Of a stretch of 64,000 bases of DNA, positions 20,685-31,636 are shown one piece after another. Under the pieces are notes generated by a model. The model was not told the DNA's origin, did no database searches, and saw nothing but the letters and a program-made list of their open reading frames with translations. A program made the position numbers and the translations under genes. Numbering within the stretch: the first letter of the stretch is position 1; each line of letters opens with the position of its first letter. Origin of the DNA: Bifidobacterium pullorum subsp. gallinarum (GTDB lineage Bacteria > Actinomycetota > Actinomycetes > Actinomycetales > Bifidobacteriaceae); NCBI RefSeq assembly GCF_000741215.1, contig NZ_JGYX01000003.1, positions 124,345-188,344 of the forward strand, given 5' to 3'.

Positions 20685-22964
20685 TCACTCCACCGTGACC
20701 AGCGTGACGCTGTATGGCTTGACGGCTATGGCCACATGCACCTGGGCCGATGACAACCGGTATTCGTTCACCTCATGCCGGATATCGCCCCGGGCGGGTC
20801 CCATGTACTCCAGTGACCGCTTGTCCTGCGGCCGGCCGTGCAGGGTCTCGACGCGCATCGTCGGCATCCTCCGCCGCGAACCGCCCAGCGCCCGCAGCCC
20901 CGATGACACATCGAGCGTGACCTGCACCGACTCACCGCCGACATTCACCAGCTTGATATAGCGGCGCGACCCCTGATCGCCCGTGGCCGACACGAACAGC
21001 CGTTTGGGTGCTTCCGGGCTGACCGAGCACGCGTAGGCCAACGACCCCACGTTGGCGGAGAACAGCCGCTGCACCTCATAGTTCACGGTCGGGTTGACGT
21101 GCGCGGGGTTGAATTCGATGAGGTTCTGTTCCCATCCCTTGCCGGGGATATGCGCCAGCAGCGGGGCGTATGAGGTCATGTGCACCACGTCGCTGTTGCG
21201 CTCGCAGCCGGTGAGGAACGCGGCCTCGGCGAGCGCCGACCGCCATTGGCAGGCTGTGGCGTAGCGTTGCGGCTGTCCGGCGAAGTAGCCGTTGGCCGAG
21301 TACTCACCGAAATAGACGCCCGCCCCGCAGCGCGGGTAGTCGTCGAAGCGATGGGCCTGCGCGATGAACCAGTCGGGTGAATGGTAGGAGTGTTCGTCCA
21401 CGATGATGGCGTCGCCGGTGGCCGATCCGACGGCCGCGACGATGGTCTCCGGCTTGTTCTCGACGCCCGTGTCCCCATCCGTTCGCCCGGATGCGGTGTC
21501 CCCGGCACCGGCGGCACCGCCGATGGCGGCGGCCACGCGGGCGACGCTGCGCGCGTGCTCCCAGCTGCGGCGCATCGGCAACGCGAACGGGAACAGCCCC
21601 GCGCTCATCACGCACAGCATGGAGGGGTCCTTGGCGTGGATGGCGCGTGCGATGGCGTCGTATTTGGCCACATAGTCGGCGCCGTAGTTCTCGTTGCCGA
21701 TGCCGATCATATCCAATCCGAACGGCTCGGGATGCCCCATATCCGCCCGGATGCGGGCCCACCTGCTCGTCTCGGGGTCGCCGTTGGCGAAATCGATGAG
21801 ATCCAGGTAATCCTGCACGACCACATCGCGGAAATATTGCGAATCGATATCGATATGCCGCGGATCGCGGTACGGCGACTGGCAGGTGATGCCGGCGAAC
21901 AGCGTCGGCAACGGCTTGGCGTTGAGATCCTCGCACAGGCAGAAGTACTCGTAGAATCCGATCTGGTAGCTCTGCGCGTAGCTGGACCCGTCCGGCGTGC
22001 GGAACCCCCACATGCTGTACTGCTGGCGGCGGGCCGGCAACGCGCCCACCGTGTCCTTCCACCGGTATTCGTTGCCCGGGGTCACCCCCTCCACGATGCA
22101 GCCGCCGGGGAACCGGATGAAAGAGGGCCTCAACGCGGCGATCGCCTCCACTAGGTCGCGCCGCAGCCTGCCGAACCGCCACTTGGGATCGCCCCTGCCC
22201 CAGTACTCGGCATCCATCAGCGTCACGCAGTCCAAATCGCAGACCACGGGCTCGCCGTCGCGGCGGATCAGGTCGATGCGCAGCTTGCCGTACTCGGTTC
22301 CCCGCCCCTGCAGGGAAGCGGCCAGCAAATGCCAGTCGTCCGCTTCCCGACGGACCGAGGCCTGCGGATCACGCGCCGACACCGTGGCGGCCGATGCCGA
22401 CGCATCACACCGGAACGTCGCGGCATCCGTGAGCGGCAGCCCGTACCGATCCACCACCGACACGCGGATATCGCAGTCGCCGGCGACGGGGCGCAGGACC
22501 ATCGAGAACTCATACCCATGCCCCTTTACGATCGACATCGCGCAGGCATGGGCGTTCGCGCCGCCGCCGTTGTACCCCAGGTTCTCCACCCGGGCGGGCG
22601 CCGGTTCGATGCCATGCCCGCCGTGCACGGACAGGCGCGCATACCGGCTGTGCGGATGCACCGGGGGCGCCGGACAATCAGTGGATACGGGGCGTCCGTG
22701 CTCGTCGGGCCGTTGCGTGCCGCAACTGACGGCCGACAGCCCCTCGAACTGCCAGAACCGCAGCGGATCGGATTGGGCGCGCCACCGCTGCGACCCCTGC
22801 ACGCGCAGGCTGTGATGGTCGAGGTACACGCCGTCGAAACTGTAGTTGTTCACCATATTGGCGTTCAGGCCGCCGTCGGCCCCCAGATTGATGTCCTCGA
22901 AGAACACCCCATACAGCCGATCGCTTACCGCATGCGTCGGCTCGCCCACCGTCACCGTCACCAT
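20685..22964 (-). CDS. GH51 alpha-L-arabinofuranosidase, long form
   Basis: The 759-aa protein has an N-terminal segment typical of GH51 (YGVFFEDINLGADGGLNANMVNN), then an inserted carbohydrate-binding-like beta domain (residues about 50-220). The catalytic TIM barrel follows: the acid/base Glu in MIGIGNENYGADY, the nucleophile Glu in YFGEYSANG, and RFPGGCIVEG earlier in the barrel. The C-terminal beta domain ends at VHVAIAVKPYSVTLVTVE. No signal peptide is seen, so it probably acts on imported arabino-oligosaccharides. ATG 22964 follows GGAGG at long spacing; the frame is open another 41 codons without support. It differs from the shorter GH51 at the right end of the window. Confidence 0.9.
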   Translation of the reverse strand: MVTVTVGEPTHAVSDRLYGVFFEDINLGADGGLNANMVNNYSFDGVYLDHHSLRVQGSQRWRAQSDPLRFWQFEGLSAVSCGTQRPDEHGRPVSTDCPAPPVHPHSRYARLSVHGGHGIEPAPARVENLGYNGGGANAHACAMSIVKGHGYEFSMVLRPVAGDCDIRVSVVDRYGLPLTDAATFRCDASASAATVSARDPQASVRREADDWHLLAASLQGRGTEYGKLRIDLIRRDGEPVVCDLDCVTLMDAEYWGRGDPKWRFGRLRRDLVEAIAALRPSFIRFPGGCIVEGVTPGNEYRWKDTVGALPARRQQYSMWGFRTPDGSSYAQSYQIGFYEYFCLCEDLNAKPLPTLFAGITCQSPYRDPRHIDIDSQYFRDVVVQDYLDLIDFANGDPETSRWARIRADMGHPEPFGLDMIGIGNENYGADYVAKYDAIARAIHAKDPSMLCVMSAGLFPFALPMRRSWEHARSVARVAAAIGGAAGAGDTASGRTDGDTGVENKPETIVAAVGSATGDAIIVDEHSYHSPDWFIAQAHRFDDYPRCGAGVYFGEYSANGYFAGQPQRYATACQWRSALAEAAFLTGCERNSDVVHMTSYAPLLAHIPGKGWEQNLIEFNPAHVNPTVNYEVQRLFSANVGSLAYACSVSPEAPKRLFVSATGDQGSRRYIKLVNVGGESVQVTLDVSSGLRALGGSRRRMPTMRVETLHGRPQDKRSLEYMGPARGDIRHEVNEYRLSSAQVHVAIAVKPYSVTLVTVE

Positions 22965-23018
22965 ATTCCTATTATCCCTCCGGACACCCCCGGCCCCCGC
23001 GGCACACCGCATCCGACA

Positions 23019-23033
23019 CGATACGTCGTATCG
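23019..23033. promoter_or_regulatory. Perfect palindrome, possible operator
   Basis: CGATACGTCGTATCG is a perfect 7-1-7 palindrome in the divergent region between the GH51 gene (start 22964) and the RpiR gene (start 23203). Its size and place fit an operator for one or both genes. The regulator is not known. Confidence 0.4.
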
Positions 23034-23202
23034 GGGCCCATGCCCCTGCGGGGTACGTAGGCCCGGACGGCGGACACCGCCGAACACCGCGAATTCACCC
23101 GATGTTCATCCGGGCTTCAGTTCACCGCCCCCGCAGGCTCACCCGGGGGCGATACGCTGGCCCCGTCCGCCGAACCGCAGCGGCTTGACCTAGGAGAACG
23201 AC

Positions 23203-24072
23203 GTGCAGACTTCCACGGGAATCAGGGAACGCATCGACCATGTGTACCCCTCGTTGCGTCCGGCGGAACGTGCCGTCGCGCAGTATGTACGCGATCATCT
23301 CGCCGAGGCGTCGGAGCTGACCGTGGGCCAGTTGGCCGAGGTCGCCCGCGTCAGCGAGCCGACGGTGATCAGGTTCTCCCGCAAGCTCGGGTTCGGCGGC
23401 TACCGTGAACTGCGGTACGTGTTGCGTCACCCGCAGGCGGAACGGCAGGCCACGTTCGACCCGCTGGAGGGATTCGACCTCAATCCGTGGGACAAGCTCG
23501 ACGACGTGCCCGAGAAAACCGTGAACGCCGCCAAAACCCTGCTGGATGACCTGCTCGCCTCGCTGGACCGCAAGGAGCTGCACAAGGCCGTCTCGCTGAT
23601 CACCCGGGCCAGGCTCATCGACATCATCGGCGTGGAGAACTCGATGGTGCCCGCCACCGACCTGTTCACCAAGCTCAGCTATCTCGGGCTGACCTGCCGG
23701 CTCAACGCCGACGCCTACATGCAGCAGATCGGCGCCGGGCATCTCGAACCGGACGACGTGGTGGTGGCCTTCTCCCATTCGGGCCGATCAGCCGACACCA
23801 TCAAGGCGCTGCGTCTGGCCAAGTCCCGCGACGCGCACACCATCGTCATCACCAACACCCCGGACGCGCCCATCGGCAACTGGGCCGATGTACGGCTGCT
23901 GGCCGGCCGGGAGGACCGGAAGATCTACGGCAGCGCCATCTTCTCCCGCACCGCGCACATCGCCATGGTCGACATCCTCTACATGGCCGTAATCCTGAGC
24001 GACTACGGCCGTTTCTCCACCGAGCTCGACCGTTCGGGGCGCTACATCCAGGACCGCGGATTCGGGGCCTGA
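23203..24072 (+). CDS. RpiR/MurR family transcriptional regulator
   Basis: The 289-aa protein has an N-terminal HTH_6 domain (residues 1-77, with LTVGQLAEVARVSEPTVIRFSRKLGFGGYRELR). A SIS sugar-phosphate-binding domain follows (residues about 120-260, with VVVAFSHSGRSADTIKALRLAKSRDAHTIVITN given here in part). GTG 23203 follows TAGGAG by seven bases. It lies upstream of the phosphonate locus on the same strand and divergent to the GH51 gene. RpiR proteins usually sense phosphosugars, so control of a phosphonate locus would be atypical. Control of the GH51 gene is equally possible. Confidence 0.9.
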   Translation: MQTSTGIRERIDHVYPSLRPAERAVAQYVRDHLAEASELTVGQLAEVARVSEPTVIRFSRKLGFGGYRELRYVLRHPQAERQATFDPLEGFDLNPWDKLDDVPEKTVNAAKTLLDDLLASLDRKELHKAVSLITRARLIDIIGVENSMVPATDLFTKLSYLGLTCRLNADAYMQQIGAGHLEPDDVVVAFSHSGRSADTIKALRLAKSRDAHTIVITNTPDAPIGNWADVRLLAGREDRKIYGSAIFSRTAHIAMVDILYMAVILSDYGRFSTELDRSGRYIQDRGFGA

Positions 24073-24080
24073 ACCTACAG

Positions 24081-24103
24081 AACTACGCGCGATTCGTGTA
24101 GTT
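24081..24103. promoter_or_regulatory. Hairpin/palindrome after rpiR
   Basis: AACTACGCG, five bases, CGTGTAGTT: a 9-bp stem with one mismatch, starting eight bases after the regulator's stop codon. It could be a terminator or an operator for the downstream phosphonate genes. The rest of the 230-bp gap holds short GC palindromes (for example CGGACGG-ATG-CCGTCCG near 24191) and no gene. Confidence 0.4.
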
Positions 24104-24304
24104 TCACCCGGAGTTCACGTTCCTTTCCCCCACCTTTCTTCCGCGATGGCCGATCGGCCGCGGCACCGGGGCGACGATGGAATTACGGACGGATGCCGTC
24201 CGGCCCCATAGCCGAACATCGAACCCAGCCGGCGAACGGGCCGGCACCCATATGACGGACGGACAGACGCCCTTCGCCCCGTCCGCGGAAGGTAGTAGCG
24301 AACC

Positions 24305-24799
24305 ATGCTCGAACTGAAGAACATCACCAAGTCGTTCGGCGACACCCCCGTGCTGAACGGCATCAGCCTGACCCTGGACAAGGCCGGATCATGTCGATCC
24401 TCGGACCCTCCGGCGGCGGCAAGACCACGCTGCTGAACATCATCCTCGGCATCACCGACGCCACCGGCGGTCAGATCCTCTTCGACGGCGAGGACCTGAC
24501 CCGGGTGCCGATGGAGAAGCGCGGCTTCAACATCGTCTTCCAGGACTACGCGCTGTTCCCGAACCTGAACGCCTATGAGAACATCACCTACGGCCTGCGC
24601 AACAATCCCGGCGTCTCCAGCGAGCAGGAGATCAAGGAACGACACCCCGGAGAACATCATCGAGCATCCGGTCAGCGACTTCGTGCGCGACTTCATCCTG
24701 CACCAGCTCGAGGTCAAGCGCAACAACATCTACTCGCTGTTCTCCGAGGACCACGCCGCCGACCCCGCCCGCCGCGAACCGGCGCTCGTCCGCGCCTGA
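24305..24799 (+). pseudogene. Broken ABC transporter ATPase of the aminoethylphosphonate importer (PhnT-like)
   Basis: The reading frame begins MLELKNITKSFGDTPVLNG, then loses one base near 24382 (AAGGCC where AAGGGCC would keep frame). In the next frame it continues through an intact Walker A (LGPSGGGKTT) and Q-loop (FQDYALFPNLNAYENI). At about 24638 the sequence jumps to the C-terminal end, TPENIIEHPVSDFVRDFILH, in the original frame. The signature motif, Walker B, D-loop and H-loop are absent, a loss of roughly 100 codons. The remnant cannot be a working ATPase. It precedes the permease gene by 15 bases, where the PhnT-type ATPase would be expected. Confidence 0.85.
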
Positions 24800-24814
24800 G
24801 AGGAGTGATCCACC

Positions 24815-27679
24815 ATGTCGGTCGAATCCATCCAGGCGGGCAAGCAGCTGCCCAACATCGCCCCCGAGATCGTCAACCATGAGCGCCGCCCCTCCAAGCC
24901 GAAGCAGACCGAGCTGTGGGTACTGCTGGCGGTTGTGGCGGTCGCGTTCTGCGCGTTCCTGATCGTGCCGATGGCGCTGGTCGTCATCAAGTCGTTCCAG
25001 ACCGGCGACGGCGCGGCCACGCTGAGCAACTACGGCGCAATCATCGCCCAGCCCGAGTTCCTGACCTCGGTGCTCAACTCGCTCAAGGTGGCGAGCGCGT
25101 CCGCACTGGTCTCGGTGCTGCTCGCGTTCCTGCTGGCCTACACGGTCAACTGCACGAACGTGCCGTCCGGTCTGAAGAAGGCCGTCTGCCTGCTCACCCA
25201 GGTGCCGATGCTGCTGCCGACCATCACCTACGGCTTCGCGATCATCTACAGCTTCGGCAATCAGGGTCTGATCACCCGTCTGTTCGGCACCCAGCTGTTC
25301 GACATCTACGGCTTCACCGGACTGATGATCGGCTACGTGATCTACACGCTGCCGACCTGCTTCCTGCTGATCAACAACAGCTTCCAGTTCGTGGACAAGA
25401 AGTTCATCATCGTCTCCCACATCATGGGCGACAAGCCGTGGACCACGTTCCTGAACACCATCCTGCGCCCCCTGGTCGGCACGCTGGCCGTGGCGTTCAT
25501 CCAGGCGTTCTTCCTGGCGTTCACCGACTACGGCATCCCGACCTCGGTCGGCGGCACCTATGACGTGCTGGCCATGACGCTGTACAACCAGATGCTCGGC
25601 TCGATCCCGAACTTCAACCGCGGCGCCGTGATCGCCGTGTTCATGCTGATCCCCTCGATCCTGTCGATCATCCTGATGACGGTCCTCGAACGCTACTCGA
25701 TCCGCTATTCCAAGGTCTCGCAGGTCGAGCTGCCCAAGGGCCCGGTGCGCGACTGGCTGTGCGGCATCGGCTCGGTGCTCACGCTGGCGTGCGTGCTCTC
25801 GCTGTTCGCGGTGATTCTCGTCATCCCGTTCGTGAACGAATGGCCGTTCGACACCTCGTTCACCCTCTCGCACATCACCGCCCTGTTCACCGAATCCGAG
25901 CTGAGCTCGGTGTACACGAACTCGCTGTACGTGGCCGTGATGACCGCCATCATCGGCTGCCTGTTCGCCTACGCCGCTGGCCTGGTAACCTCCCGTTCCA
26001 AGCTGCCCAACTGGGCCAAACGCGCGGTGGACTCCATGAGCTCGGTCATCAACACCGTGCCCGGCATGGTGCTCGGCATCGCGTTCCTGTTCGCGTTCTC
26101 CGGCAGCTCGCTGCAGAACACGTTCTGGATCCTCATCATCGCGAACATCGTGCACTACTTCGCCACGCCGTACCAGATGATCAAGGACTCCCTGACCAAG
26201 ATGAACGGCTCGTGGGAGACCACGGCCAAGCTTATGGGCGACAACTGGTTCAAGACGATCGTGCGCGTGGTCACCCCGAACGCGTGGCCGACGATCCTGC
26301 AGGTGTTCGGCTACTACTTCGTCAACGCGATGGTCACGATCTCCGCGGTCGTGTTCCTGACCGGAGCCCGCACCCAGGTCATCACCACCGAGATCTCCGC
26401 GCTGCAGCATCTGGCCGAGTTCGATCAGATCTTCGCGCTGTCGATCCTGATCCTGGCCACCAACCTGATCGTCAAGGGCGTGGTGGCGGCGGCCACCCGC
26501 GAGCGCGGCACGGTCACCATCCGCCAGCGCGTGGTGCAGGTCGCCACCGCCGCGATGACGGTCCGCCGCGATTCCCGGCTCGTGGCCGCCGAACAGGCCT
26601 CCCGCTCCGGCTCCCCCGACTTCCCGCTGCCGACCACCGACAACCGTCGCGGGCGCACCATCTTCACCGGCACCCTCTCCGGCATCCTGGCGGTGCTGCT
26701 TGTCGCCTTCGGATTCGGCGCGTTCTCCGGCACCGCCGCGGCCGACGGCCAGGTCGTCATCTACACCAACGCCGACGACGAGGCCGTCACCGCGTTCCAG
26801 AACGCGCTGAACGCCAACAGGTTCGAGAACAAGTACGTCATCCAGAGCTTCGGCACCTCCGAGCTCGGCGGCAAGCTGCTCGCCGAGGGCAAGGCGCTGG
26901 AGGCCGACCTGATCACGATGAGCTCGTACTACGTGGATTCGGCGCAGGAACGCAACCATATGTTCGCCGACCTGACCGACGTCAAGTCGCAGCTGCTCCA
27001 GGACAGCAGCAACTCCACGGCCCCGGCGTACCGCCGGCCGACCACCGTGCAGGAGGGTGCGATCTTCTACAACACCACCGTACTGCGCGACGAGGGGCTG
27101 CCCGTGCCGCAGTCGCTGGCCGATCTGGCCGATCCGATCTACGCCGGGCAGATCTCGGTGACCGACATGGAGGGCTCCTCCACCGGCTGGCTGATGGTCC
27201 AGGCCATCGCCGACGCCTATGGCACCGGCGAGGAAGGACGCGAGATCCTGACCGGCATCTACCGCAACGCCGGCCCGCACCTGCAGATGTCCGGCTCCGG
27301 ACCGCTCAACTCGGTGCGCTCCGGCGAGGTGGCGATCGGCTTCGGCCTGCGCCACCAGGCGATCGCCGACAAGAACGAGGGCCTGCCGATCGACTACGTG
27401 GATCCCGAGGAGGGCAACTACTCGCTGACCGAGTCGGTGGCCGTGCTCGACAAGGGCGACCGGACGAACCCGCTGGCGCAGCGGATGGCCGCCGCCATCA
27501 TCGACGCGGGCCGCCCCGAACTGCTCCGGACCTATCCGAACCCGCTGTACGTGGGCGAACAGGCGCCGGACAACGGTTCCGCGAACCCGCAGGTCTTCCC
27601 CGAGCCGCTGACCGTGGACCTGCTGCAGGCGCACCAGGACTTCTCCGAGGCCTGCAAGCGCGAGGCGCAGGGCAAGTAG
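24815..27679 (+). CDS. Fused ABC permease-permease-substrate-binding protein (2-aminoethylphosphonate type)
   Basis: One 954-aa protein. Residues about 30-300 and 310-590 are two MetI-like permease domains, as in the fused PhnU/PhnV and FbpB permeases, with EAA-loop-like stretches near DKPWTTFLNTILRP and GDNWFKTIVRVVTP. An extra membrane helix lies near residues 613-635 (TLSGILAVLLVAFGFGAF). It leads to an extracytoplasmic solute-binding domain (residues about 640-954) that starts GQVVIYTNADDEAVTAF and includes EGAIFYNTTVLRDEGLPVP, like PhnS/iron-type binding proteins. An even number of permease helices plus one puts the binding domain outside. ATG 24815 follows AGGAG. Adjacent phnW and phnX indicate aminoethylphosphonate as substrate. 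The ATPase partner upstream is broken. Confidence 0.88.
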   Translation: MSVESIQAGKQLPNIAPEIVNHERRPSKPKQTELWVLLAVVAVAFCAFLIVPMALVVIKSFQTGDGAATLSNYGAIIAQPEFLTSVLNSLKVASASALVSVLLAFLLAYTVNCTNVPSGLKKAVCLLTQVPMLLPTITYGFAIIYSFGNQGLITRLFGTQLFDIYGFTGLMIGYVIYTLPTCFLLINNSFQFVDKKFIIVSHIMGDKPWTTFLNTILRPLVGTLAVAFIQAFFLAFTDYGIPTSVGGTYDVLAMTLYNQMLGSIPNFNRGAVIAVFMLIPSILSIILMTVLERYSIRYSKVSQVELPKGPVRDWLCGIGSVLTLACVLSLFAVILVIPFVNEWPFDTSFTLSHITALFTESELSSVYTNSLYVAVMTAIIGCLFAYAAGLVTSRSKLPNWAKRAVDSMSSVINTVPGMVLGIAFLFAFSGSSLQNTFWILIIANIVHYFATPYQMIKDSLTKMNGSWETTAKLMGDNWFKTIVRVVTPNAWPTILQVFGYYFVNAMVTISAVVFLTGARTQVITTEISALQHLAEFDQIFALSILILATNLIVKGVVAAATRERGTVTIRQRVVQVATAAMTVRRDSRLVAAEQASRSGSPDFPLPTTDNRRGRTIFTGTLSGILAVLLVAFGFGAFSGTAAADGQVVIYTNADDEAVTAFQNALNANRFENKYVIQSFGTSELGGKLLAEGKALEADLITMSSYYVDSAQERNHMFADLTDVKSQLLQDSSNSTAPAYRRPTTVQEGAIFYNTTVLRDEGLPVPQSLADLADPIYAGQISVTDMEGSSTGWLMVQAIADAYGTGEEGREILTGIYRNAGPHLQMSGSGPLNSVRSGEVAIGFGLRHQAIADKNEGLPIDYVDPEEGNYSLTESVAVLDKGDRTNPLAQRMAAAIIDAGRPELLRTYPNPLYVGEQAPDNGSANPQVFPEPLTVDLLQAHQDFSEACKREAQGK

Positions 27680-27706
27680 TCCCGCCCGGACGCGTCCCTC
27701 CCCTTT

Positions 27707-27781
27707 TGCACGAATCGGCCGATTCTTACGTTGGCATCGCAACCATATGGCCGTTTCCGCAAGAATCCCCCGATTCGTGCA
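27707..27781. repeat. Long inverted repeat between transporter and phnW
   Basis: Arms 27707-27730 and 27758-27781 (24 nt each, TGCACGAATCGG at each outer end) pair with about three mismatches around a 27-nt loop. The left arm contains the perfect palindrome GAATCGGCCGATTC. The structure fits a partial terminator or attenuator that lowers phnWX expression relative to the transporter, or a DNA operator. Confidence 0.55.
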
Positions 27782-27835
27782 TTCCGCCCCCCACATCTGT
27801 ACACCGCAACCATCAAGAAAGGCACACCCATCACC

Positions 27836-29008
27836 ATGAACCGCGACTACAAGCTGCTGACCCCCGGTCCGCTGACCACCACCCGCACGGTCAAGGAGGA
27901 GATGCTCTTCGACCACTGCACCTGGGACGACGACTACAAGGCCATCACCCAGAAGATCCGCGCCGACCTGCTTGAACTCGCCCACTGCAACCCGTCCGAG
28001 TACACCACCGTGCTGATGCAGGGCTCCGGCACCTTCGGCGTGGAGAGCGTGCTGACCAGCGTCATCGGCGCCGACGAGAAGGTGCTGCTGTGCACCAACG
28101 GCGCGTACGGCGACCGTCAGGTCAAGATCTGCGAGCACGCCGGCATCGACTACGTGCAGTACGCCGAACCGTACGACCGGATCCCGGATACCGCGCATGT
28201 GGCCGAGATCCTCGACAACGACCCGTCAATCACCCACGTCTCGATGATCCACTCGGAGACCACCTCCGGTCTGCTCAACGACATCGAGTCGGTGGCCCGC
28301 GTGGCCAAGGCGCACGGCTGCACGTTCATCGTGGACGCGATGAGCTCGTTCGGCGGCGTGGACATTCCGGTGGCCGACTGGGGCATCGACTTCCTGGTCA
28401 GCTCCGCCAACAAGTGCATCCAGGGCGTGCCCGGCTTCAGCTTCATCATCTGCAACACGGCCAAGCTGGAGGCGTCGCGCGGCAAGGCGCGCAGCCTGTC
28501 GCTGGATCTGTGGGACCAGTGGAACACGTTGGAGAAGGACGGCGGCAAGTGGCGTTACACCTCCCCCACCCATGTGGTGCTCGCGTTCAACAGGGCGCTG
28601 GACGAGATGAAGGCCGAAGGCGGCATCCCCGCGCGTTCGGCCCGCTACGCCACCAACAACCGCATGCTGATCGCCCGCATGAAGGCGCTCGGCTTCGGCA
28701 CGTTCCTCAAGGAGCATCAGGGTCCGATCATCACCACCTTCACCTACCCGGAGGGCGTGAGCTTCGACTTCGCCGACATGTACGCGTTCATCAAGGAGCG
28801 CGGCTACGCCATCTACCCGGGCAAGCTGACCGACGAGGAGACGTTCCGCCTGGGCAACATCGGCGAGATCTACCCCGACGACATCCGCCGCGTGACCGAG
28901 CTGTTCGCCATGTACATGGCCGAGCGCGGACTGCTCGAACCCTGCGCCGGCACCACCGACATCGCCACCGCCATCGAGGCGATGGACGAGGCGTCGGCCG
29001 CCCTGTGA
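27836..29008 (+). CDS. phnW: 2-aminoethylphosphonate:pyruvate aminotransferase
   Basis: PhnW transfers the amino group of 2-aminoethylphosphonate to pyruvate, giving phosphonoacetaldehyde and alanine. The 390-aa PLP enzyme begins MNRDYKLLTPGPLTTTRTVK, the usual PhnW N-terminus. It has FIVDAMSSFGGVDIP with the cofactor Asp and DFLVSSANKCIQGVPG with the Schiff-base Lys near residue 194. ATG 27836 is 13 bases after AAAGG; the frame is open upstream but without homology. phnX follows with a 34-bp gap, completing the two-step route. Confidence 0.95.
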   Translation: MNRDYKLLTPGPLTTTRTVKEEMLFDHCTWDDDYKAITQKIRADLLELAHCNPSEYTTVLMQGSGTFGVESVLTSVIGADEKVLLCTNGAYGDRQVKICEHAGIDYVQYAEPYDRIPDTAHVAEILDNDPSITHVSMIHSETTSGLLNDIESVARVAKAHGCTFIVDAMSSFGGVDIPVADWGIDFLVSSANKCIQGVPGFSFIICNTAKLEASRGKARSLSLDLWDQWNTLEKDGGKWRYTSPTHVVLAFNRALDEMKAEGGIPARSARYATNNRMLIARMKALGFGTFLKEHQGPIITTFTYPEGVSFDFADMYAFIKERGYAIYPGKLTDEETFRLGNIGEIYPDDIRRVTELFAMYMAERGLLEPCAGTTDIATAIEAMDEASAAL

Positions 29009-29042
29009 CAACCCGATAACCGCATAGCAAAGGATGTATCTG

Positions 29043-29819
29043 ATGACCAACCGTTTCGACGCCGTGATCTTCGACTGGGCCGGCACCACCGTGGACTATG
29101 GCTGCTTCGCCCCCGTGCAGGCGTTCGTGGAAGCGTTCCGCGAGTTCGGCGTGGAGCCGACGATGGATGAGACCCGCCGGCCGATGGGCATGCTCAAGCA
29201 TGACCACATCAGGACGATGATGGGCATGGACCGCATCGCCCGCGCATGGGAGGACGCGCATGGCGCCGCCCCCACCGATGCGGACGTGGACGCCGTCTAC
29301 AGCCACTTCGAGCCCAAGCTGCTGAGCATCCTCGACCGGTTCGCCGACCCGAAGCCGGGGGTGATCGACGCCGTGGCCGCGCTGCGCGAGGCCGGATTGA
29401 AGATCGGCTCGACCACCGGCTACACCGACGCGATGATGGAGATCGTCGTGCCGAAGGCCGCCGAGCTCGGCTACGCCCCCGACCATTGGGTCAGCGCCGA
29501 CGGCACGCAAGGCTTCGGCCGCCCGTACCCGTACATGATCTTCCACAACATGCAGGTGCTGCGGCTGATGGATGTGCGCCGCGTGGCCAAGGTCGGCGAC
29601 ACGATCTCCGATATCAAGGAGGGCAAGAACGCCGGGGTGTTCACCGTCGGCGTGACCGAAGGCAGCTCGCAGATGGGCCTGTCCCTGGCCGAGTTCGAGG
29701 CGCTCTCCCCCGCCGAACAGGACCGTGAGCGGCTGATGGCGCGTGAGGCGTTCCTGGAGGCCGGCGCCGACGCGGTGATCGACACGATGGCCGAGCTGCC
29801 CGCCCTGCTGCTGGGCTGA
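29043..29819 (+). CDS. phnX: Phosphonoacetaldehyde hydrolase (phosphonatase)
   Basis: PhnX cleaves the C-P bond of phosphonoacetaldehyde to acetaldehyde and phosphate. The 258-aa HAD-fold protein starts with the nucleophile motif VIFDWAGTTVDYG. The cap Lys needed for the Schiff base is in RPMGMLKHDHIR near residue 50. GSTTGYTDAMMEIVVPKA and KVGDTISDIKEGKNAGV supply the later HAD motifs. ATG 29034 lies directly on the AAAGGA, so ATG 29043 is chosen. It is the last gene of the locus; the acetaldehyde could be reduced or oxidised by general enzymes. Confidence 0.95.
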   Translation: MTNRFDAVIFDWAGTTVDYGCFAPVQAFVEAFREFGVEPTMDETRRPMGMLKHDHIRTMMGMDRIARAWEDAHGAAPTDADVDAVYSHFEPKLLSILDRFADPKPGVIDAVAALREAGLKIGSTTGYTDAMMEIVVPKAAELGYAPDHWVSADGTQGFGRPYPYMIFHNMQVLRLMDVRRVAKVGDTISDIKEGKNAGVFTVGVTEGSSQMGLSLAEFEALSPAEQDRERLMAREAFLEAGADAVIDTMAELPALLLG

Positions 29820-29853
29820 ACGCGCTCATCGCCCCGGCATATGCCGCAGAGGC

Positions 29854-29924
29854 ACGGTTCTCAAGGCGCACGATCTCAGCTCAGCCTCAGCCTGCGGCTC
29901 CAAGCCACAGCTCGTGAGAACCGT
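29854..29924. repeat. Inverted repeat after phnX
   Basis: ACGGTTCTCA (29854-29863) and TGAGAACCGT (29915-29924) form a perfect 10-bp stem over a 51-nt spacer. The right arm abuts the next hairpin. This is the first of three inverted repeats packed between the convergent phnX and hydrolase genes. Confidence 0.5.
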
Positions 29925-29970
29925 CTTCGGGTGCGTGTTGTCGTCTCCGCGCGACAACACGCACCCGAAG
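29925..29970. terminator. Perfect 19-bp hairpin, first of a tandem pair
   Basis: CTTCGGGTGCGTGTTGTCG (29925-29943) pairs perfectly with 29952-29970 around an 8-nt loop. It is a strong bidirectional terminator candidate between convergent genes. Confidence 0.7.
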
Positions 29971-29981
29971 TGATGTCTAGG

Positions 29982-30017
29982 ATGCCGTGTTGTCGCATCC
30001 GTGCGACAACACGGCAT
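29982..30017. terminator. Perfect 15-bp hairpin, second of a tandem pair
   Basis: ATGCCGTGTTGTCGC (29982-29996), loop ATCCGT, and its complement to 30017. It shares the GTGTTGTCG core with the preceding hairpin but has different flanks. It ends 19 bp before the stop of the minus-strand hydrolase. Confidence 0.7.
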
Positions 30018-30036
30018 TTGCGTATCCTCCGCCGGT

Positions 30037-31038
30037 TCAGCGCAGGTGTTCGTTGAAGAACGTCTCCAGCTTGTCGAACGGGATCGCGTCCTTGCCACCG
30101 CCGTCATACAGGTCGGTGTGCACGGCGTCGGGGATGATCAGCAGCTCCTTGTTGTCCGTGTACGGGTTGTCCTTGACCATGGCGGCGTAGGCGTCGCGGC
30201 TGAAGTAGCAGGAGTGGGCCTTCTCGCCGTGCATCACCAGCACCGCGCTGCGGATCTCGTTGACGTACCGCAGAATCGGCTGGTTCAGGAACGACATGCA
30301 TCCGATCACGTTCCATCCGCCATTGGAGTTCAGGGAGCGGGGATGGTAGCCACGCGGGGTCTTGTAGTAGTCGTGGTAGTCCTTGACGAAGAACGGGGCG
30401 TCGTCCGGCAGCGGGTCGACCACGCCGCCGGCCAGCGCGTACTCGCCGTTGCGGCAGTCCGCGGTCCGCTGCGCGTTCAGCGCCCGCTTCTTCTCGTAGC
30501 GGGCGTCGGCGGAATCCTCCGCATCGAAGTAGCCGTTGGCGTTGACGCGGGTCATGTCGTACATGGTGGACGCCACGGTGGCCTTGATGCGGGTGTCCAG
30601 CGCGGCCGCGTTCAGGGCCATGCCGCCCCAACCGCAGATGCCGATGACGCCGATGCGTTCAGGATCCACGTTCTCCTGCACGGACAGGAAGTCGACGGCC
30701 GCCTGGAAGTCCTCGGTGTTGATGTCCGGTGAGGCCATGTAACGCGGTTCGCCGCCGCTCTCGCCGGTGAAGGACGGGTCGAAGGCGAGGGTCAGGAATC
30801 CGCATTCCGCCATCGTCTGCGCATACAGGCCCGAGGCCTGCTCCTTGACCGCGCCAAAGGGGCCGCACACCGCGATCGCGGCCAGGCGCCCGGCGGCGTT
30901 CTTCGGCTCGTACAGGTCGGCCGCCAACGTGATGCCGTACCGGTTATGGAAGGTGACCTTGCGATGGTTCACCAGCTCGCTTTGGGGGAACGTCTTGTCC
31001 CATTCCTCGGTAAGGTTCAGGGGCTTGGTATCCGCCAT
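30037..31038 (-). CDS. Alpha/beta hydrolase with Cys nucleophile elbow
   Basis: The 333-aa protein shows an alpha/beta hydrolase core: LAAIAVCGPFGAVKEQ for the oxyanion region, and IGVIGICGWGGMALNAA for the nucleophile elbow with Cys near residue 137 where most have Ser. VLVMHGEKAHSCYFS and the His of DAVHTDLYDGG complete the triad. A Cys elbow is typical of dienelactone hydrolases; the overall sequence resembles DUF1100/YcjY-like hydrolases. It has no signal peptide. AAAGGA precedes the start. A divergent MerR gene and a MerR-type promoter with a 19-bp spacer lie upstream, so it is probably an inducible detoxification or ester-cleaving enzyme. The substrate is unknown. Confidence 0.82.
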   Translation of the reverse strand: MADTKPLNLTEEWDKTFPQSELVNHRKVTFHNRYGITLAADLYEPKNAAGRLAAIAVCGPFGAVKEQASGLYAQTMAECGFLTLAFDPSFTGESGGEPRYMASPDINTEDFQAAVDFLSVQENVDPERIGVIGICGWGGMALNAAALDTRIKATVASTMYDMTRVNANGYFDAEDSADARYEKKRALNAQRTADCRNGEYALAGGVVDPLPDDAPFFVKDYHDYYKTPRGYHPRSLNSNGGWNVIGCMSFLNQPILRYVNEIRSAVLVMHGEKAHSCYFSRDAYAAMVKDNPYTDNKELLIIPDAVHTDLYDGGGKDAIPFDKLETFFNEHLR

Positions 31039-31140
31039 GGTTCATCGTCCTTTCCTTGCGATGTCCGCTGCAACCGAATCCGTCGGGTCTGCCCGGGCTT
31101 CGGAGAGCCGTGATTCCGTTCTTCCGCAACTTGCAGTATG

Positions 31141-31171
31141 ATCATAGAAGTTAAAGTCAACTTGAGGTCAA
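31141..31171 (-). promoter_or_regulatory. MerR-type promoter with 19-bp spacer
   Basis: Read on the minus strand: -35 TTGACC (31171-31166), 19-bp spacer, -10 TATGAT (31146-31141), with the dyad AAGTT, six bases, AACTT inside the spacer. An overlong spacer with an operator between the boxes is the mark of promoters activated by MerR proteins. It would drive the hydrolase with a leader of about 95 nt. The merR start lies 34 bp to the other side, so the regulator can also control itself. Confidence 0.72.
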
Positions 31172-31204
31172 GCATCATGGTGTGTCGCCGCGAAGGAGAA
31201 TCCC

Positions 31205-31636
31205 ATGCACTATTCGATCGGCGAGGTATCGGACATCACCGGCATCGCGGCGTCCACGCTCCGCTATTACGACCGTGAGGGCATGTTCCCCGCAATGGAA
31301 CGCTCCTCCGGCGGCATCCGCGTGTTCTCCGAGACGGAACTGGCCACGCTCAAGGTGATCGCATGCCTGAAATCCTCGGGCATGCCCATCAAAGACATCA
31401 AGGAGTTCCTGGACTGGTGCCAGGAGGGCGACCCGTCGATCGGCAAGCGTCGCGAGATGTTCCACCGCAGGCTCACCGAGGTCGAGTCACAGATCGCCGA
31501 ACTCGAACGCACCCGCAACATGCTGCGCTACAAGTGCTGGTATTACGACACCGCCTCCGAAGCCGGCACCGAGGACGCCGTACGGGACCTCCCCGACGAT
31601 GCCATTCCGGAGGACCTGCGCGATTACCGCATCTGA
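31205..31636 (+). CDS. MerR family transcriptional regulator
   Basis: The 143-aa protein has a winged-helix N-terminus (YSIGEVSDITGIAASTLRYY, with the usual RYYDREGMF continuation). A long dimerisation helix follows (residues about 80-115, RREMFHRRLTEVESQIAELE). The C-terminal tail is short and holds a single Cys (YKCWYYD), so metal sensing like MerR itself is unlikely. It belongs to the stress/aldehyde or small-molecule branch. It is divergent from the hydrolase gene and shares its promoter region. Confidence 0.9.
   Translation: MHYSIGEVSDITGIAASTLRYYDREGMFPAMERSSGGIRVFSETELATLKVIACLKSSGMPIKDIKEFLDWCQEGDPSIGKRREMFHRRLTEVESQIAELERTRNMLRYKCWYYDTASEAGTEDAVRDLPDDAIPEDLRDYRI

Follow-up and report, generated by a model that had tools for sequence, protein, structure and literature searches.

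Can a bifidobacterium live on a phosphonate? The question is raised by a 64,000-nucleotide stretch of the Bifidobacterium pullorum subsp. gallinarum genome (assembly GCF_000741215.1, contig NZ_JGYX01000003.1, positions 124,345 to 188,344 of the forward strand), referred to below as the window. Its positions 23203-29819 carry, all on the plus strand, a gene for an RpiR-family regulator (23203-24072; Pfam HTH_6 and SIS domains above cut-off), a gene coding for a fused importer subunit made of a permease and a substrate-binding protein (SBP) (24815-27679), phnW for 2-aminoethylphosphonate (AEP):pyruvate transaminase (27836-29008) and phnX for phosphonoacetaldehyde hydrolase (29034-29819). These four were correctly placed in a preliminary description made from the sequence, which overlooked that an ATP-binding cassette (ABC) ATPase gene between rpiR and the permease is broken. 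The damage to this aepV/phnT2-like gene (24305-24799, plus strand) was recognised by comparison with B. pullorum. The gene identities, the broken ATPase, the fusion, the conservation and the upstream repeats are all features of the sequence itself; taken together, they make it quite probable, in our opinion, that the locus is a Pho-controlled AEP phosphonatase operon for phosphorus scavenging, and that its importer, fused and similar to AepW-AepX, has probably lost its uptake function in this genome.

PhnW scores 504.7 bits with TIGR02326 (cut-off 400.8) and PhnX 364.6 bits with TIGR01422 (cut-off 220), both thresholds being NCBI curated equivalog cut-offs. The best sequence match of PhnW in the Protein Data Bank (PDB) is 1m32 from Salmonella, deposited as AEP-pyruvate aminotransferase (E 2e-119); the alignments of PhnW with 1m32 and of PhnX with 2iof and 1fez span nearly the entire lengths. 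When aligned to 2iof, PhnX keeps DWAGTT, the nucleophile motif, as well as a lysine replaced by arginine in the mutant chain 2ioh; we take the conserved aspartate to be the nucleophile and the lysine to be the Schiff-base residue. The start of phnW is better set at ATG 27836 than in the open reading frame (ORF) 27731-29008 listed originally, because the B. pullorum alignment begins there. The cut-off scores and PDB alignments support the idea of a phosphonatase route located beside a phosphonate-type importer in a Bifidobacterium.

PhnW was found over cut-off in 38 out of 112 Bifidobacterium genomes; in a further genome, G047, it is divided between two frames. The permease-SBP protein is present in 39 of the 112, and a genome by genome comparison has shown that the two lists contain the same 39 genomes. 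The locus is common in Bifidobacterium, occurring in about a third of the genomes. Phosphonate use had been described as not usually a bifidobacterial trait; it is not peculiar to one genome, yet this survey of the genus also disposes of the possibility that the locus is universal. A scan of named genomes, which relies on exact short peptides and may omit the window's own record, found 51 loci, of which 41 are in Bifidobacterium records covering 40 species names. The remaining 10 include Drancourtella, Sellimonas, Slackia, metagenome-assembled genomes (MAGs) of Clostridia and one distant Saccharopolyspora. To our knowledge, none of the 40 species names from this exact-peptide scan is one typical of human infants. 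In 38 of the 41 named Bifidobacterium records phnW and phnX both come next; the other three, L081, L082 and L097, are cut off by contig ends. As the order ATPase, permease-SBP, phnW, phnX recurs across many species, the arrangement is beyond chance. In a phylum sample of 396 genomes, four matches were obtained at 1e-60 including the window's own, two of them at just 32% identity. Among the genomes compared, the closest relative is B. pullorum DSM 20433 (97% in the fused protein), followed by B. phasiani and B. apri in a 45-sequence tree.

No description of AEP use or of this operon in bifidobacteria was found in the library of open-access papers searched, which has few subscription journals, so the locus does not appear to have been described already in these sources. 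Phosphonate transporters of the infantis PhnDCE type have been published, according to the passages concerned with them (PMC8477406, PMC4506816). The PhnDCE cluster of B. longum subsp. infantis, reported with RpiR and a HAD hydrolase, resembles our locus in combining a phosphonate-type ABC transporter with RpiR in a bifidobacterium, but its transporter belongs to a different family (3.A.1.9) and PhnW is not named in the passage on that cluster (PMC8477406). A PhnD-type binding protein scored over cut-off in four of the 112 genomes (G075, G102, G095 and G078; L158-L161), of which solely G075 also has phnW over cut-off. If our reading is correct, a large part of the genus has a phosphorus source that is absent from discussions of these sugar-fermenting gut bacteria, and the role of AEP as a nutrient in animal guts becomes open to testing.

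What does the importer carry? Its assignment to the PhnS/PhnU/PhnV type was approximate: the best curated models for its three parts are PhnU2, PhnS2 and PhnT2, none of them reaching its cut-off. In the 954-aa product of ORF 24815-27679, TIGR03262 (PhnU2) matches residues 36-563 and TIGR03261 (PhnS2) residues 638-898. The permease scores 357.6 bits with TIGR03262, the best model of the library for it (cut-off 593.25), the SBP 93.5 bits with TIGR03261 (cut-off 392.75), and the intact ATPase of B. pullorum 286.1 bits with PhnT2, TIGR03265 (cut-off 457.7); the window copy of the ATPase lacks residues 113-205 and with them the intact ATPase motifs expected of PhnT2. The chain is laid out as a two-domain permease (about 36-563), a cytoplasmic linker, a membrane helix (611-633) and an extracellular SBP domain (638-954), the topology (linker inside, SBP outside) being predicted. 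For the fused chain as a whole, the AF2 model reaches a mean predicted local confidence score (pLDDT) of 63.5, too low for detail, with helix 611-633 lying within a disordered 564-644 region. The SBP domain predicted alone reached a pLDDT of 84.0 and a predicted template modelling score (pTM) of 0.83. The folds nearest to this model are AfuA, VcA0625 and P5PA (Z 27.6-29.1, root mean square deviation 2.7-2.8 over 297-299 residues), all binders of phosphorylated compounds; AfuA and P5PA are organophosphate-binding proteins, a likeness that we also count in favour of our reading.

Sugar phosphates are frequent ligands sensed by RpiR proteins, and the three nearest folds belong to binders of hexose phosphates and pyridoxal phosphate. 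Together with the sub-threshold AEP scores of the SBP and the permease, this would suit an importer of another phosphorylated compound, such as a sugar phosphate or a different phosphonate, to which phnWX is merely adjacent. However, phnW and the importer share the same 39 genomes, they also remain neighbours in Clostridia and in a Slackia MAG, and the best permease model is PhnU2, so we find such a substrate very unlikely and infer AEP to be the imported compound.

The closest known counterpart is AepXVW with phnWX of Pseudomonas putida BIRD-1 and Stappia, likewise described, in the part of the source dealing with it, as an SBP, one permease protein and an ATPase typically located beside phnWX (PMC8316502). 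In P. putida BIRD-1 the system is reported there to be phosphate-sensitive and required for growth with AEP as the sole phosphorus source (PMC8316502). Unlike AepXVW, most Bifidobacterium loci encode permease and SBP as one polypeptide, the ATPase of relatives is short (265 aa, covering just 231 of 353 PhnT2 positions), the repeats upstream are of the actinobacterial PhoP-type kind, and in the genome studied here the ATPase is broken. The importer would fit a system working like AepXVW, although by curated scores it lies outside the PhnS2/T2/U2 families.

Permease and SBP share one ORF in 37 of the 39 genomes and in 39 of the 41 named Bifidobacterium records. Two cases depart from this: in B. 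miconis (L111) frameshifts interrupt the permease and phnW, whereas An836 (L116) encodes its SBP separately and has a frameshift in the ATPase gene. In OpuA and GlnPQ an SBP domain is present on each copy of a homodimeric permease; here a single chain already holds both permease domains, so each transporter would be expected to have just one binding domain. The covalent tie between SBP domain and permease is common to these importers and ours, as far as the relevant passages describe them (PMC11065425, PMC8025302). The fused importer offers a natural single-binding-domain tethered transporter for study.

Separate SBPs (L116, L119, L120, L121 and L123) begin with an apparent lipoprotein signal, which is what we take their N-terminal pattern to be. 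Four clostridial in-frame ORFs (L109, L113, L117 and L118) retain a lipoprotein-type signal inside the fused frame. In the Bifidobacterium fusions and in the Slackia MAG the linker is longer, and a hydrophobic helix lacking a lipoprotein signal stands at that place. Some Bifidobacterium fusions have a cysteine inside the helix; in L053 and L067 it lies within VAFGC and might serve as an anchor. In a tree of 45 sequences built from SBP, PhnW and PhnX (root support 82), the separate-SBP L116 with its lipobox nests inside Bifidobacterium with a support of 100. A single ancestral fusion event was considered; the position of L116 disfavours a simple one-step story.

Is the pathway used for phosphorus? 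Actinobacterial PHO boxes consist of 11-nt direct repeat units (DRus) with the core GTTCACC, as given in the part of the source defining them (PMC6283541). Direct repeats of this PhoP type are located upstream of the transporter operon (24102-24134, plus strand; an array scoring 17 of 21, with units of 6, 6 and 5) and upstream of rpiR (23082-23125, plus strand; two overlapping arrays, 17 and 16 of 21). In the whole window, arrays of at least 16 occur at four places only: 24102, 23082, 23093 and 206 (the last on the minus strand). The region upstream of the ATPase gene was scored in 40 of 42 loci (L082 and L110 were dropped, as the start pattern failed), and the mean best three-unit score was 14.78 compared with 11.33 in shuffled sequences (60 shuffles, sd 0.16); the opposite strand gave 11.47. 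Upstream of rpiR the mean was 14.80 over 35 loci (11.22 in shuffles) and upstream of pstS 14.67 over 15 genomes (11.12 in shuffles), the significance of all these contrasts being overstated by the relatedness of the loci, which are not independent. In 37 of the 40 loci, a score this high is reached by no more than 10% of the other windows in that locus. A tandem GTTCAT-GTT(C/T)AC with 11-nt spacing precedes pstS in 14 of 15 chosen genomes, and 11 is the best period among 7-17 in the operon, pstS and rpiR sets alike. Units of 11 nt with the GTTCACC core are found before the operon, rpiR and pstS. A response-regulator-like ORF adjoins pstS in this genome, judging by sequence.

We consider the operon and rpiR to be under putative PhoP control through these repeats, PhoP binding being predicted. 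The repeats preceding the operon and rpiR, which also precede pstS, point to phosphorus scavenging; out of phosphorus, nitrogen and glycan-decoration scavenging, all left open by the preliminary description, they favour the first. The same pathway could instead serve mainly for nitrogen or carbon, in the form of alanine and acetaldehyde, under RpiR control. PhnW gives alanine by its known reaction, rpiR is found within the fetched flank of 34 of the 41 named Bifidobacterium loci (in either orientation), and an ACTAC/GTAGT motif is enriched upstream of both the ATPase gene that opens the operon (2.20 occurrences per sequence, compared with 0.25) and phnW (1.77 compared with 0.30). Some AEP systems elsewhere are also described as phosphate-insensitive (PMC8316502). 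On the other hand, the PhoP-type arrays stand before the operon in the same register as before pstS. The region before rpiR shows no enrichment of the motif (0.20 compared with 0.19), so RpiR as the ACTAC binder is unsupported. A main use for nitrogen or carbon seems to us rather improbable. Before pstS, the motif is somewhat enriched, at 1.13 per sequence against 0.32.

RpiR was also considered as the operon's own regulator. Its orientation and distance are variable, it is missing from the flank in 7 of the 41 loci, and the lack of ACTAC enrichment before rpiR leaves this role without support as well. As PhoP-type repeats precede rpiR, the regulator may itself be a member of the Pho regulon. 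In most of the 35 loci scored (34 named ones and the window's own), these repeats lie about 95-225 bp before rpiR.

Can the operon still import AEP in this genome? Compared with B. pullorum, the closest relative compared and one with an intact ATPase, the ATPase gene has a start codon at 24305, shifts frame close to 24380 and shows a gap around 24640. Residues 26-112 and 206-265 of the 265-aa B. pullorum protein are matched in two frames, and residues 113-205 (about 93 codons) have no counterpart. Judged by sequence, the missing part holds LSGGQ (signature motif), LLLDEP (Walker B) and VTHD (H-loop). The remnants show few amino acid changes, on few sites, and we read the loss as recent. No intact second copy was found in the genome; a spare ATPase gene was rejected, the next best ABC ATPase being just 40% identical over residues 15-230. 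A PhnD-type transporter as a substitute was rejected too, its match being weak (30.6 bits, cut-off 112.05). Because the ATPase gene is broken, AEP import through this system has probably been lost here. The enzyme and permease genes are still intact, and the neighbours of the ATPase are open and similar to those of B. pullorum. The broken ATPase warns that gene names alone are insufficient to call a strain a phosphonate user.

The damage might also be an assembly or sequencing artefact, with the operon intact in the living strain: the genome is a draft of 10 contigs, the lesions were read in one assembly of this single strain, and the remaining pieces show no excess of amino acid changes. Yet this one gene carries two distinct lesions, including the loss of some 0.3 kb, while the genes on either side are uninterrupted, and genome completeness is 99.81%. 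We regard an artefact as unlikely.

Besides the relatedness of the loci mentioned above, several points weigh against a Pho-controlled AEP operon that has lost its uptake. The permease, the SBP and the relatives' intact ATPase all fall below the curated AEP-transporter cut-offs. Three of the 40 loci (L096, L099 and L103) have no convincing array, pstS of G104 lacks the tandem repeat, and this reading does not account for the conserved ACTAC motif before the operon and phnW. The low ratios of nonsynonymous to synonymous substitution rates (dN/dS) against B. pullorum, 0.10 for the fused gene and 0.16 for each of phnW and phnX, count in favour of the operon but mostly reflect the time before the ATPase break. 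The ATPase lesions could partly be assembly errors, and the 40% identical ATPase might substitute for the broken one.

In the mechanism we propose, the SBP domain tethered to the permease would capture AEP outside the cell, and the permease and ATPase would import it. PhnW would then transfer the amino group of AEP to pyruvate. Of the two products, alanine and phosphonoacetaldehyde, the second would be the substrate of PhnX, which would cleave its C-P bond and release phosphate and acetaldehyde. Phosphate starvation is expected to control both the operon and rpiR through the PhoP-type repeats. In this genome, high-affinity import would probably have disappeared with the ATPase, leaving the enzymes and permease intact. 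A gut source of AEP is plausible, because locust N-glycans (PMC6994554) and a Bacteroides capsule (PMC12413058) are reported to carry it. More tentatively, and with somewhat more doubt than belief, we speculate that AEP serves as a phosphorus source under Pho control for bifidobacteria in the guts of birds, bats, pigs and non-human primates. They might obtain it from the glycans of arthropods or the capsules of Bacteroides, and would take it up via a one-chain importer with both permease domains and the SBP. In this scenario the fusion would have replaced a lipid-anchored SBP, and some lineages associated with poultry would now be losing uptake again. These hosts are our assumption from the species names.

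Besides the broken ATPase of the window and the frameshifts in An836 and B. miconis given above, lesions recur in the operon of other, unrelated gut genomes; in all of these, real loss and assembly effect are both possible. In Sellimonas caecigallum (L117) the ATPase is joined to the permease and the SBP to PhnW, the Slackia MAG (L122) has an internal permease loss, and the actinobacterial genome G339 (L138) has a shortened ATPase and a permease joined to PhnX.

A search of the region 22950-31250 gave no sigma-70 promoter-like sites, where 1.0 would be expected, and one terminator-like site against an expected 3.6. The gap between the SBP and phnW varies in length from 82 to 739 across 39 loci, and a PhoP-type array in it reached 14 in just one of the 39. 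Here the gap includes a 24-nt inverted repeat (27707-27781; arms 27707-27730 and 27758-27781, 88% complementary), a possible operator or hairpin, and a similar sequence is present in B. pullorum. Long hairpin-forming sequences occur in this gap in several species (L078, L083, L086, L092 and L103). On the other side of the locus, an arabinofuranosidase-like gene (20685-23087, minus strand; ASD1_dom and Alpha-L-AF_C) is divergent to rpiR, and the pair stays divergent in several species, even in those where its orientation to the phn operon is reversed.

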